From the IMG/VR virus record IMGVR_UViG_3300043436_000548, positions 1 through 23,509 of that record: a DNA stretch of 23,509 bases; one strand, 5' to 3'. Below, one piece after another: positions 2,029 to 18,155 of this stretch. Origin of the DNA: a virus. Below the pieces are notes generated by a model that worked only from the letters and a program-made list of their open reading frames with translations, did no database searches and was not told the DNA's origin. The number at the start of each line of letters is the position of its first letter. Position 1 is the first letter of the stretch. The position numbers were made by a program, and so were the translations under genes.

Positions 2029-3684
2029 TTATCCAAGCCTCGCTGCTCGGTTTATTCTTATAATCTTTTCTTGTTGATTAGTGATGTCAGATTCAACAAC
2101 GTATGCCCTACCTGCTGCTGACCCCATTTGGTTGATGGATTGCTGACTTAATGAGGTTACAGTGTTTTGGATTGGTGCAGATGGTGCTATTGGTGCAGCA
2201 GACATAGACATTGATGGAGAACCCGATTCAGCAACATTGCCCGTTCCTTTTGCAGATGGTACTTTTGTACTGATAATCTTTTTAACATTTATCAATCCTG
2301 CTGCGATGGTCGCTGCTGCTGCCACAGGTCCAAAGATACCACCTTGTGCCAATGCTTTAGATGCACCTTGATAAGTGTTTATGATTGCTTGAGTAACCGC
2401 AATTGCTTTACCTGCTGCACTATTTTGGTCAACAAGTCCACCGATAATGGAAAGAGATTGAGAAGCAAGTCCTAATTGAGCATCAAACTTCTCCTGCTCT
2501 AACTTTTTCTCGTAATCTGTTAACTGCTTCTTTGCATCCGCTTGTTGAGTAGCACTGACAATAATTGCATCTGTTACACCCTTTGCAGTTACTTGTGTTG
2601 CAATAAGTGCATCCTTTCCTGCTGCGGTTATTCCTAAAACTTCAGTTTTGGTAATATTTGCAGCAAGTTCTTTGTCCCTACGAATTAACTCTTCGCCTTC
2701 TTCCCTTTCCTTTCTTGCCTTGTCTTTTTCTGCTTGTTTTGCTGCTGCATCTTTTGCTGCCTGTGCATTTCTGTCTGCTATCCTCTTTTGCTCGGTAGCA
2801 TCAAGGACCGCACTTTCAACCTTTAATTCCCTGAATCTTTTTGCTTCTTCCTCGGTTAGCGTTCCAGTAAGTTTCAATCTTTCACGCAGTGCATTAGTTT
2901 CATTGGCATTTGCCTCTTTTTGCAGTGCGTAAATCTCCTTTTCTTTACCACCTTGTGCAGTAAGTAATTTTACTCTTGCCTCAATATTTTCATTCGCCTT
3001 TGCATTGGTCTTGCTTAACTTTTCAAGCACCCTATCCGCTTCGGATGTTATGCCCACAAAATCAGTAAACTTTGTAACAAGGTTGCCTACAAGGTCAGCA
3101 AACTTTCCAAGACCAGGTATAAAGTTAAGGACTACCTTTTTAACTGTTTCAAAGTTGGCAATCAATAAACCTACACCGACAACCAATGCACCTATACCAG
3201 TTGATATGATAGCACTCCTAAGCGTTCCGAATGCCTTAGAAACGCTATTCCCAATTACCGCACCCAATTGCTTGAATGAATCTATGCTCTCGCCAACCGC
3301 CTGTAAACCCTGTGAAAGTGCCATTGCAGATTGAACCTTTAACAAGGTTTTCTCTACTGCTTCTGTTTGCTTTCCGAACAATCCAACCGCACCCTGCAAT
3401 GCTGCGAATCCACCTGCTACACCCGACAAAGATGCGGTTAATGCTTTAAACTTTGCATCGGGATTGAAGGCATCCGTTAACGCTTTCGCATCACCGATGG
3501 CATCCTTTAATTGTGCTGCCCTTTTTGCTGCCTCAATTGCTTCCTTAGATGTTGCACCGAACTTGTCAGACAATGCGGTGACCTCATTTTGTGCTTCCCT
3601 TAATTGTTGTTTAAGTGAACCAACCGATTTGCCTACATCCCCTGCATCAACTTTGACCTTGACACCAATTATCTCTTCTGCCAT
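2029..3684 (-). CDS. Tail tape measure protein
   Basis: The protein has 551 aa and starts MAEEIIGVKVKVDAGDVGK, with an alpha-helical N-terminus (SLKQQLREAQNEVTALSDKFG) typical of short tape measures. There is an Ala/Gly-rich region about 90-155, a hydrophobic segment about 158-177 (STGIGALVVGVGLLIANF), a strongly charged coiled coil about 300-345 (rich in K, E, R, A) and a second hydrophobic stretch about 425-470 (IFGPVAAAATIAAGLINVK). Tape measures set tail length and may help DNA cross the envelope. With the rough rule of 0.15 nm per residue the tail would be about 80 nm. It lies 1 nt from the preceding tail gene and ahead of the head genes. Confidence 0.8.
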   Translation of the reverse strand: MAEEIIGVKVKVDAGDVGKSVGSLKQQLREAQNEVTALSDKFGATSKEAIEAAKRAAQLKDAIGDAKALTDAFNPDAKFKALTASLSGVAGGFAALQGAVGLFGKQTEAVEKTLLKVQSAMALSQGLQAVGESIDSFKQLGAVIGNSVSKAFGTLRSAIISTGIGALVVGVGLLIANFETVKKVVLNFIPGLGKFADLVGNLVTKFTDFVGITSEADRVLEKLSKTNAKANENIEARVKLLTAQGGKEKEIYALQKEANANETNALRERLKLTGTLTEEEAKRFRELKVESAVLDATEQKRIADRNAQAAKDAAAKQAEKDKARKEREEGEELIRRDKELAANITKTEVLGITAAGKDALIATQVTAKGVTDAIIVSATQQADAKKQLTDYEKKLEQEKFDAQLGLASQSLSIIGGLVDQNSAAGKAIAVTQAIINTYQGASKALAQGGIFGPVAAAATIAAGLINVKKIISTKVPSAKGTGNVAESGSPSMSMSAAPIAPSAPIQNTVTSLSQQSINQMGSAAGRAYVVESDITNQQEKIIRINRAARLG

Positions 3685-8338: not shown

Positions 8339-8384
8339 ATACTTTAAATAGTTTAAATGTGAAATAATGTATAAGTGAATCTTA

Positions 8385-8475
8385 ATCTACTCCCGAACAA
8401 GGTTATGAGGGAAGTTGGTCAGAACAGAAGTTGCCCCCTACCCCCAATAGGAAACAACTACTGACCATCTACTCC
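8385..8475. repeat. Imperfect stem-loop with flanking 9-bp direct repeat
   Basis: On the plus strand TGGTCAG (8416-8422) is the reverse complement of CTGACCA (8461-8467). An inner GTTG (8430-8433) matches CAAC (8455-8458). The loop holds CCCCCTACCCCC. The 9-mer ATCTACTCC occurs at 8385-8393 and again at 8467-8475, either side of the stem. It could be a packaging or processing signal next to the terminase genes, or an element in the 5' end of the virion transcript. Confidence 0.35.
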
Positions 8476-8605
8476 GTCACATAGGTAATCGGGTTAGTCG
8501 GCTGAAAAGGGAAAAAGTTACATCCTTCTTTTCATTTAACAGATTTAAACTCCTTGATTTCAGAACTTTGAGAGGTAGTGGTCTACTTGCAGGTCAATCA
8601 AGTAT

Positions 8606-8647
8606 GGGCAAAAAGAAAACCCACACATTTCGCAGTTGTATGGGTTT
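8606..8647 (-). terminator. Strong intrinsic terminator downstream of terminase
   Basis: On the minus strand AAACCCATACA (8647-8637) pairs with TGTGTGGGTTT (8627-8617), giving 11 pairs with one T-G wobble around the 9-nt loop ACTGCGAAA. TTCTTTTTGC follows, with the T-run continuous with the stem. It lies about 150 nt past the terminase stop and ends the candidate small RNA. Confidence 0.85.
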
Positions 8648-8707
8648 AACGTAAGCGGGTTGCTTAAATCAAACCCGAATAAATACTGCGAATATCTAAT
8701 CGGATTG
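8606..8707 (-). ncRNA. Candidate structured small RNA with pseudoknot
   Basis: A promoter-like site would start a transcript near 8707 that ends at the terminator near 8606, about 100 nt with no start codon followed by a credible frame. In order it shows TTCGCAGT (8692-8685), a hairpin CGGGTT/AACCCG (8677-8672 with 8661-8656, loop of 10 nt), then the terminator hairpin whose loop ACTGCGAA (8636-8629) is the exact complement of the first element. Eight of nine loop bases can thus pair upstream to form a pseudoknot. This is read directly from sequence; expression and function are inference. Confidence 0.5.
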
Positions 8708-8713
8708 ACTATG

Positions 8714-8742
8714 CGAAAATACTAAATATTTTAGATTACCAA
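8714..8742 (-). promoter_or_regulatory. Candidate promoter of the small RNA
   Basis: On the minus strand TTG (8742-8740), an 18-nt spacer and TATTTTCG (8721-8714) resemble the Bacteroidota pattern TTG-N17-19-TAnnTTTG with one mismatch. The same variant ending (TTCG) occurs in the early promoter candidate at 22025-22054. Confidence 0.4.
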
Positions 8743-16642: not shown

Positions 16643-17400
16643 TTATCTTTTAAAAGTTTATCAAAGTAGCATGATACCGCCATACGATAGCACTGATGCT
16701 CAAGATACTCTTCATCCTTTAACTTGTTCTTGATGTCTATCTTGTCCTGCCTTGAACCTTTAAACATCCTGTCATTCATTGCAGATATTACCTTATCATA
16801 GGTATCCTCAACCTCAACAATGATTTTACCACGTTTGTGCAGGATATGGAAGACATCTATCCCGAACACAATGTTATCCCATTGCTTAAACTTTGAGTAA
16901 CAATCAAAGGCAGTTTCTATCTTTTCATCATCAGTTACAAATCTTGGTTGCCATTTAGACTCCTGCTCAACTGGTTTAATCTCGTTAAGTTTCTGCATTC
17001 CATACCTTGCAAATGCTCTAAGTAACCTGTGAAGGTATAGCATTGAAAAGTTTTGGTATGTTTCTGCTTCTATGTCAAGTTTACCCTTTGCTGCTAAATC
17101 AAAAGCAAGGGATAACTCACCGAACTTGATGTTAGGGTATTCCTCCATTATGGACTTGTACATAAGCAAAAGGTCTGCATTGTTTGGCATCTTATCACCT
17201 TTAACACCAAGTTTCTGCATCCCGTTGATAAGTTCATCAATAACCAATGCAGTGCTTAAATTCTTGATAGGTTCACTGGTTCTTGATAGTTTAAACTTCT
17301 CAAGGTCTAATTCCTCTGAGTTGGTCAATCTTTTCTGCGTACTGATGGAGTTCTGCTCTGCGTTCTGCATAGATGTCAGAACTTGATTTAGTGGTAACAT
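16639..17400 (-). CDS. Replication-associated protein, unknown family (helicase-loader position)
   Basis: The protein has up to 253 aa. The core about 75-145 reads ADLLLMYKSIMEEYPNIKFG, LSLAFDLAAKGKLDIEAE and FSMLYLHRLLRAFARY, a pattern I know from phage proteins downstream of replication initiators. The rest is helical and charged; no Walker motif is seen, so it is not an AAA+ helicase. Its place after the initiator is where lambda P-type helicase loaders lie; that role is inference. The start is uncertain: 17400 overlaps the initiator gene by 101 nt, while a TTG near 17328 would overlap by about 29 nt. Confidence 0.55.
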   Translation of the reverse strand: MLPLNQVLTSMQNAEQNSISTQKRLTNSEELDLEKFKLSRTSEPIKNLSTALVIDELINGMQKLGVKGDKMPNNADLLLMYKSIMEEYPNIKFGELSLAFDLAAKGKLDIEAETYQNFSMLYLHRLLRAFARYGMQKLNEIKPVEQESKWQPRFVTDDEKIETAFDCYSKFKQWDNIVFGIDVFHILHKRGKIIVEVEDTYDKVISAMNDRMFKGSRQDKIDIKNKLKDEEYLEHQCYRMAVSCYFDKLLKDK

Positions 17401-18040
17401 TTGATTTATAATTTTTAGAGTTTTTAATCCAGTTCCTTGATGCTGCTTTCCAGTCCTTCATTGGGTTCTTACCTACCTTCCAACCATTGCTTTCGTAGTA
17501 GTTGAAGAATCCCTCTGCTTCTGTTAGGTTTGCAAGTTCTTCAAAATAGTTCTGTACTTCAAATAACTCAGGGCGTACAAAACCTACTTTACTTTCTTTT
17601 ACTTTAGTTTCCTTTACTTTACTTTCCTTTATTTGCATTGCATCGGCATTGCATTTGCTATGCATTTGCATTGCATTTGCATCTGTTTCTACCTTATCCC
17701 ATCTTTTTTGTGCTGCAACTCTTGCTCTTTGGGTCTTTTCTATGTAAGGTTGTAGGTAGTAAATCTGCTTAATACTAAAAAAGTTCTCATTTGAATCAAC
17801 TTCAAATAAACCATAATTGCATACCACTACTCTTACTTTTTGCTCACTAATGCCGAATTCATGTGCAAGAATGTAAATATCATCTAATGGATATTTGAAG
17901 TCATTTTGCTCTCTAAGCACTTCCAGTAACATAAAATAGATTGCATAACCTTCAAGACCTAACTCAATGCGAACACGCATAATCTTTCTATCGTGCCTTG
18001 AGTTTGCGAAATGCGGAAAATAAAACGCATCTTTCTTCAT
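17300..18040 (-). CDS. Replication initiator with DUF4373 (Lin1244/Lin1753-like) domain
   Basis: The protein has 246 aa. Residues 1-100 match the DUF4373 N-terminal domain: MKKDAFYFPHFANSRHDRK, then GLEGYAIYFMLLEVLREQ and FGISEQKVRVVVCNYGLF, a winged-helix unit typical of phage replication proteins. A low-complexity linker about 108-150 (Asn/Ala/Met-rich, then repeats of KESKV/KETKV) leads to a DnaD-like C-terminal part with FFNYYESNGWKVGKNPMKDWK. The DNA that encodes the linker carries five 11-bp iterons, a candidate origin. The gene starts right after a promoter, hairpin and terminator element, so its expression is probably controlled by attenuation. It would open the origin and recruit helicase. 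Confidence 0.8.
   Translation of the reverse strand: MKKDAFYFPHFANSRHDRKIMRVRIELGLEGYAIYFMLLEVLREQNDFKYPLDDIYILAHEFGISEQKVRVVVCNYGLFEVDSNENFFSIKQIYYLQPYIEKTQRARVAAQKRWDKVETDANAMQMHSKCNADAMQIKESKVKETKVKESKVGFVRPELFEVQNYFEELANLTEAEGFFNYYESNGWKVGKNPMKDWKAASRNWIKNSKNYKSNVTTKSSSDIYAERRAELHQYAEKIDQLRGIRP
17583..17630 (-). repeat. Purine-rich tract beside the iterons (candidate unwinding region)
   Basis: On the coding strand this stretch is almost all A and G, built from near-repeats of AAAGTAAAG and GGAAA. Together with the adjacent iterons it recalls the AT-rich, strand-asymmetric part of the lambda origin. In protein it encodes the K-E-S-K-V-K-E-T repeats, which are common in linkers of this protein family, so a coding-level explanation is also possible. 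Confidence 0.4.
17629..17683. repeat. Five 11-bp iterons inside the initiator gene (candidate origin)
   Basis: On the plus strand five tandem 11-bp units start at 17629, 17640, 17651, 17662 and 17673, with consensus GCATTTGCATT. The third to fifth match over the GCATTTGC core; the second has two changes and the first has two changes at its edge. The period is one turn of DNA and is not a multiple of three, so it does not follow from repeats in the protein. Iterons in the linker of an initiator gene are the known arrangement of lambda-type origins. Confidence 0.6.
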
Positions 18041-18087
18041 AAAATAAAAAAAGGGGATTCAGGTGTAGTGTGTTTACCCGATTCCCC
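18041..18087 (-). terminator. Intrinsic terminator just before the initiator gene
   Basis: On the minus strand GGGGAATCGGGT (18087-18076) pairs with ACCTGAATCCCC (18064-18053), 12 positions with one A-A mismatch and one G-T wobble, around an 11-nt loop. TTTTTTTATTTT (18052-18041) follows and runs into the ATG of the initiator gene. Stopping transcription here would shut off that gene, so it probably works as an attenuator. Confidence 0.85.
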
Positions 18088-18142
18088 ATTCTTGTCTGTT
18101 CTTACAAACAAGCATTTGCACACTACCTCAAATGCTTGTCTA
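18041..18142 (-). ncRNA. Structured leader RNA with kissing loops (attenuator or small RNA)
   Basis: The promoter-like site at 18148-18155 would start RNA near 18142. The RNA begins with a perfect 11-bp hairpin, ACAAGCATTTG (18139-18129) with CAAATGCTTGT (18118-18108), loop AGGTAGTGTG. The terminator hairpin follows. The loop bases GTAGTGTG (18126-18119) are the exact complement of CACACTAC (18072-18065) in the terminator loop, so the two loops can kiss over 8 bp. No reading frame is apparent in it. This is a strong structural signal; the role in controlling replication or immunity is inference. Confidence 0.6.
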
Positions 18143-18147
18143 CTTTG

Positions 18148-18155
18148 CAAAGATA
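18148..18155 (-). promoter_or_regulatory. Candidate promoter of the leader RNA
   Basis: On the minus strand TATCTTTG (18155-18148) matches the Bacteroidota -7 element TAnnTTTG exactly, and a C-A follows as is common. No TTG or TTTG lies at the usual -33 distance, so an activator may be needed. A perfect 10-bp palindrome CTTTGCAAAG (18143-18152) overlaps it and could be an operator. Confidence 0.5.

Follow-up and report, generated by a model that had tools for sequence, protein, structure and literature searches.

Control of replication initiators by RNA is a textbook subject in plasmids; to our knowledge, little is known of it for phages, and hardly anything for phages of Bacteroidota. The described system nearest in logic to the leader presented here is that of the Staphylococcus plasmid pT181, in which the attenuated gene is repC, the gene for the replication initiator. 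A terminator in the pT181 leader decides expression, and loop-loop kissing is the first contact between the RNAs (PMC4878617). The CI RNA of phage P4 is likewise a short RNA that involves premature termination before phage replication genes and complementary segments within one leader (PMC4825925); it is processed and keeps the lysogen silent. For IsrK of the prophage Gifsy-1, the sections of the same source that treat it describe one promoter from which a small RNA arises by termination and an mRNA by read-through; IsrK activates translation of this mRNA in trans, and these sections do not describe kissing with its own terminator (PMC4825925). Long-range loop pairing also precedes the replication initiator gene repZ of ColIb-P9, where, as far as the citing text describes it, control is translational, is exerted by an antisense RNA and involves no kissed terminator (cited in PMC10724649). 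Finally, the trpB motif (Rfam RF04312) consists of a hairpin followed by a terminator, and occurs before trpB or transporters in Firmicutes and Fusobacteria (PMC11109978).

We analyzed a virus record of 23,509 nucleotides (hereafter the window, meaning this whole stretch), whose minus strand carries all main genes. The leader at 18155-18046 (minus), directly behind which the initiator ATG follows at 18040, shares with pT181 its place before an initiator, an intrinsic terminator ahead of that gene, recognized here by sequence, and a predicted kissing interaction. The two differ in the source of the partner. While pT181 has a kissing antisense RNA and a real anti-terminator, the partner loop of the phage leader lies on the same strand, in the terminator. 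An antisense promoter is not apparent: opposite-strand TAnnTTTG elements occur in 3 of 23 leader clusters, against 3.8 expected, and none has a -33 TTG. A conserved anti-terminator that would disrupt the stem of the terminator, as textbook attenuators have, could not be demonstrated. The leader also does not look like a ribosome-mediated attenuator with a conserved leader peptide, given that the short ATG frame of the window leader is absent in the other leader families.

Compared with the P4 CI RNA, the phage leader shows no sequence likeness, its target is a terminator loop, and the genomes do not appear to be temperate elements that silence their replication genes: an integrase (PF00589) was found in 0 of 20 phage records, but in 14 of 14 control genomes. 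Yet two Sphingobacteriaceae genomes hold such leaders. Regarding the trpB motif, RF04312 gave no match for the leader (18041-18155), and a second module in the same phage scores 28.1 bits, below the cut-off of 59 bits. The features are collected in Table 1.

Table 1. Predicted features of the phage leader, its presumed target gene and related modules (window coordinates unless a locus is named)
Feature	Coordinates	Strand	Description and basis
Putative promoter, -7 element	18148..18155	-	TATCTTTG, Bacteroidota type TAnnTTTG; sequence and conserved position in relatives
Hairpin 1 (P1)	18108..18139	-	11-bp perfect stem ACAAGCATTTG/CAAATGCTTGT (18139-18129 / 18118-18108), 10-nt loop AGGTAGTGTG; probable 5' end of the RNA
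Kissing partner 1	18119..18126	-	GTAGTGTG, in the loop of hairpin 1; 8/8 complementary to 18065-18072
Linker	18088..18107	-	TTTGT...ACAGA within the linker can pair
Terminator hairpin (P2)	18053..18087	-	GGGGAATCGGGT...ACCTGAATCCCC (18087-18076 / 18064-18053), one A-A mismatch, loop AAACACACTAC; sequence, fold, scan, covariation
Kissing partner 2	18065..18072	-	CACACTAC, in the terminator loop; scan, covariation
Terminator T-run	18046..18052	-	ends 5 nt upstream of the ATG
Replication initiator, Lin1244_N domain	17300..18040	-	PF14297 (E 1.7e-12); phrog_2562, replication initiation protein (E 1.8e-18); gene presumed to be controlled by the leader
Second kissing module	8617..8720	-	TATTTTCG; hairpin AATCCGA...TTCGGGTT with loop TTCGCAGT; terminator with ACTGCGAA; T-rich tail
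Sphingobacteriaceae kissing leader, locus L256	~2990-3110	-	some genes ahead of the initiator
Sphingobacteriaceae kissing leader, locus L499	~2755-2855	-	

A preliminary description of the site had listed a TAnnTTTG element, an 11-bp hairpin and a terminator running into the start codon of the initiator on the minus strand, and eight complementary bases between the two loops. All of these lie where it had placed them, and GTAGTGTG and CACACTAC are Watson-Crick complementary throughout. Hairpin 1 begins at most 10 nt behind TATCTTTG, and the enclosed RNA is predicted to be ~95 nt long. A -33 TTG, present in 8 of 23 leader clusters, is absent at the window promoter, so the promoter is called here by its -7 element and location. 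The expectation that such a combination would rarely arise by chance was also borne out. The folding energy of the leader is -38.9 kcal/mol (z = -4.1), which 0 of 200 shuffles equal. A scan written for this purpose gives the site a score of 74, with three shuffled versions of the window reaching no more than 48, and comparison of the leader alone with its shuffles by the same scan gives p = 1/301. The kissing 8-mer has no other copy and no second loop target anywhere in the window; the short loops of other phages show extra matches, which may be due to chance. Pairing within the linker might form at the expense of the base of hairpin 1. One part of the preliminary description did not survive. 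A 10-bp palindrome over the promoter, CTTTGCAAAG, had been regarded as part of the element and was considered as an operator, but relatives do not keep it (e.g., TATCTTTGGGTAG and TATCTTCGCAAAG), and it is probably incidental.

Relatives were collected from IMG/VR by searching with the hairpin, the terminase, the initiator, the 82-aa protein encoded upstream, the gene that follows the initiator and an initiator of a different type. The searches yielded several hundred loci, whose leaders were read; many of these loci come from overlapping contigs and were de-duplicated by sequence only. Most of the leaders have a common plan of TAnnTTTG, hairpin, terminator, T-run and ATG, often with no other sequence likeness. 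There are 40 distinct kissing sequences in 23 leader clusters (<75% identity). Examples of loop pairs are GTAGTATG/CATACTAC, GTGGAAC/GTTCCAC, GGGAAAC/GTTTCCC, GTCGGAT/ATCCGAC, GTCAGAT/ATCTGAC, ATGCGAC/GTCGCAT, GTGGCTT/AAGCCAC, GAGTCAG/CTGACTC, AAGAACCAC/GTGGTTCTT and CTACGAA/TTCGTAG; several pairs were judged by eye (e.g., in loci L020, L022, L028, L037 and L405). Counterparts of kissing partner 1 that retain their complements include GTAGTATG, GTAGAGTG, GTAGTGAG and GTAGTGC. The loop of hairpin 1 is purine-rich (190 of 293 letters in the 40 distinct kissing sequences), and the terminator loop is consequently pyrimidine-rich.

Across the leader clusters, the element TAnnTT[TCA]G lies a median of 5 nt upstream of hairpin 1 (23 clusters), linkers are mostly 12-20 nt long, and the enclosed RNA measures ~85-125 nt. 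In loci L419, L421, L424, L433, L435 and L439, the promoter spacer holds a ACAACCTCGCGTGGTTGT inverted repeat that resembles a repressor operator, beside the kissing leader.

Complementarity between the loops spans 6-9 nt within a leader, compared with a mean of 3.7 nt between leaders. This set was pre-selected for the kiss, and we therefore regard two other comparisons, a genome scan and a test on 26 clusters, as the fair tests. To be accepted by the scan, a site must combine a T-run with a terminator stem, a hairpin upstream of it and at least 6 complementary bases; the scoring scheme of the scan is our own and was set after the first relatives had been seen. Modules with a promoter and a score of at least 54 number 20 in 18 near-complete phage genomes and 0 in shuffled genomes. 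One of the 20, which maps to the opposite strand and is not near a leader, probably reflects chance; nearly all the others lie before an initiator or behind a terminase. The promoter element accompanies 20 of 25 strong genome matches, versus 7 of 124 chance matches in shuffles. When leaders were chosen only by the downstream protein, 13 of 26 clusters reached p ≤0.02 against shuffles. Several further clusters in this set have the loops with shorter stems or broken T-runs, a few of them detected by eye only, and at least 5 of the 26 do not have the module plan. Given that relatives carry the same device with matching loops in at least 20 unrelated sequences, we conclude from this sequence comparison that the kissing leader is a real control element.

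Covariation was counted in three alignments, with two further leader families left out as too ragged. In Family A, which includes the window leader (12 sequences), changes on both sides occur in 3 of 8 kissing pairs and in 11 of 23 stem pairs (6 of 11 in hairpin 1 and 5 of 12 in the terminator). Family B (13 sequences) has two-sided changes in 2 of its 7 kissing pairs, with all 91 cells paired. The alignment of the second module (20 sequences) shows such changes in every one of the 7 kissing pairs and pairing in all 138 cells, while 10 of the 18 pairs of hairpin 1 and the terminator never vary. Sliding the partner by 1-3 columns abolishes the signal in all three alignments. The loop-loop helix is thus maintained by compensatory change, as is typical of kissing-loop RNAs. 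The preliminary description had suggested that a lack of covariation in stems or loops would speak against the element; in fact, both covary, and other initiators are preceded by unrelated sequences with the same anatomy.

Taking the three alignments together, the kissing cells comprise 319 Watson-Crick pairs, no G-U pair and 2 unpaired cells, which come from two rows whose kiss is shorter, whereas 119 of 1135 stem cells (10.5%) are G-U; alignment cells are not independent events. Strict Watson-Crick pairing fits a kissing helix, although a constraint at the DNA level would look alike. The complementarity might in that case be an inverted repeat in DNA, maintained by protein sites, a replication origin or repeat homogenization, with no role in RNA, and the position of the element next to the initiator would agree with this. 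We consider this explanation extremely improbable. The strictly paired segments lie between a promoter and a T-run and occupy apical or internal loops, the hairpins that present these loops covary and do admit G-U, and the second module is far from the replication genes.

Our preferred interpretation is that the leader is an attenuator made of RNA only, in which loop-loop pairing determines how often transcription terminates and how often it continues into the initiator; we give this reading about an even chance of being correct. Transcription would start at the TAnnTTTG promoter, and hairpin 1 would fold at the extreme 5' end and expose a kissing sequence of 6-9 nt in its loop. Farther downstream, the same transcript would form an intrinsic terminator, and the loop of this terminator matches that of hairpin 1 in perfect Watson-Crick complementarity. 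Most transcripts would be expected to stop at this terminator, making the short RNA of ~85-125 nt the default product, and read-through would give the initiator mRNA. The kiss would form in cis and fix the fold, and hence the choice between termination and read-through; it would probably also stabilize the short RNA. The kissing segment of the terminator loop occupies its 3' side or a position close to it, so that hairpin 1 could reach this segment before the terminator closes. With linkers mostly 12-20 nt long, pairing in cis appears feasible but tight.

The second module of the same phage lies behind the terminase and has loops, TTCGCAGT and ACTGCGAA, that differ from those of the first. Its homologues sit downstream of the terminase in relatives, some of which do not have it. 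The stems AATCCGA...TTCGGGTT and ACCCA...TGGGT are kept in relatives, while the loops are freely exchanged (GTAGAAG, GTCTCAG, GATGCAA, ATAGCAG, GTTGCGG, ATTACGG and more), and a middle hairpin in the long linker shows compensatory changes. No gene starts behind this module. Instead, a non-coding stretch of 260-500 nt, of at least three unrelated types, leads to a tail gene and often contains a further TAnnTTYG. The fold of this long stretch is not unusual (z -0.8). In the window it comprises ~270 nt (8339-8616, minus), has no Rfam match and is well conserved in relatives; in other relatives its place is taken by non-coding sequence of 315-500 nt, of two or more unrelated types. Between the terminase and the second module is a hot spot of small cargo genes that vary by phage (L156, L157, L159, L161, L166, L167, L168, L174 and L180). 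The cargo genes carry their own TAnnTTTG-like promoter, and several also have a GGGAGGTTCGCCTCCC terminator.

Since no gene starts behind the second module, control of an initiator cannot be the module's only use. Moreover, given its occurrence before varied non-coding stretches and its absence in some relatives, the module is portable and not tied to initiators. This bears on whether the leader might act on translation, with a hairpin just before the AUG that blocks the ribosome and is locked or opened by the kiss, and with a T-run that is simply an AT-rich start region. The terminator stem in relatives mostly ends 4-17 nt upstream of the initiator ATG, which agrees with this reading, and the pseudoknot in the ColIb-P9 repZ leader acts in translation according to the text that cites it (PMC10724649). 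However, the hairpin and T-run also occur in the second module, where no start codon of a gene lies close behind, and we regard translational control as highly improbable.

The diversity of the loops raises the main alternative to attenuation in cis, namely that the terminated RNA is itself the product. It would act in trans on copies of its own leader, and so measure the number of phage genomes or oppose a co-infecting relative with the same loops, like plasmid antisense RNAs in copy number control and incompatibility. The 40 distinct kissing sequences and their strict pairing are consistent with such a role, as are the different loops of the two modules in one phage and the exchange of all second-module kissing pairs on a largely invariant scaffold. 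A precedent is found in IncK plasmids, where single loop changes set incompatibility (PMC10724649). On the other hand, a single RNA contains both partners, which would be expected to pair in cis before doing so in trans. The second module alone has hypervariable loops, the kiss of the first being no more variable than its stems, and the 20 records without a PF00589 integrase imply that there is no prophage immunity to serve. Overall, we view action in trans as unlikely, if still worth considering. Of the preliminary proposal, the frame of an attenuator or short RNA remains the best one, but P4 CI-like action in trans on replication or immunity fits poorly with the missing integrases, with the location of both partners in one RNA and with the lack of a second loop target in the window. 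Rather unlikely as well is a broader idea, in which the loop pair of each Bacteroidota phage belongs to a widespread RNA code read between RNA molecules. Through this code, genomes of one type would count one another in the course of an infection or shut one another out, and the late region would be served by a further pair orthogonal to the first.

Leaders and initiators are combined in many ways. Family A leaders precede five N-terminal types of initiator and Family B leaders at least six, and the MKKDAFYFPH type of initiator stands behind at least six leader clusters; these counts derive from overlapping loci and are not counts of independent phages. As leader families and initiator types are mixed, the leader appears to be independent of the DNA-binding domain of the initiator, and it is unlikely that the initiator's own DNA-binding part is the regulator. 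The initiators (17300-18040 and relatives) are themselves mosaic, with unrelated N-terminal domains, a similar C-terminal part and the same helicase-loader-like gene behind them.

This mixing also bears on the possibility that the kissing fold serves as the binding site of a small molecule or a protein, as in a riboswitch or a protein-bound leader, and that binding switches termination. The compact fold with its conserved scaffold would suit a ligand, as would the long linker with its covarying middle hairpin in the second module. However, the leader families are not linked to initiator type, nor do they share the sequence core that is expected for a ligand pocket. At the gathering score, Rfam 15 contains no family that matches the window or seven relatives; matches to snoRNA, miRNA and trpB families at low scores were dismissed as chance or generic. 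A ligand-bound leader is therefore decidedly unlikely in our view.

Among cellular genomes, the module was found in only two loci, both in Sphingobacteriaceae. Their leaders share one scaffold and have different loops (CGTCTCAC/GTGAGACG and CATCCAC/GTGGATG), and the stretch surrounding one of them, in Sphingobacterium sp. UT-1RO-CII-1, is prophage-like. Together with the TAnnTTTG promoters, these loci point to Bacteroidota as hosts of the phages with the module. Relatives in bacterial genomes that were identified by the initiator protein mostly have a plain gene boundary and no leader. The initiator of a Porphyromonas phage has only 61 nt upstream and that of a Bacteroides phage overlaps its neighbor, so that neither has space for a leader. 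The helicase-loader-like gene had no match in 50,697 cultured phage records.

We found no description of such elements in phages in the literature, in a search that covered few subscription journals. A survey of RNAs in the human microbiome includes phage-linked candidates from Bacteroidetes (PMC8040213). The module is apparently undescribed, but the evidence for novelty is weak, as these candidates were outside our comparison. A kiss between the first hairpin and the terminator, present in two copies in one phage, would represent a novel means of linking a terminator to its own leader. The set of modules provides dozens of natural, mutually mismatched loop pairs, with which action in cis and in trans could be distinguished directly, and which would constitute naturally orthogonal attenuators.
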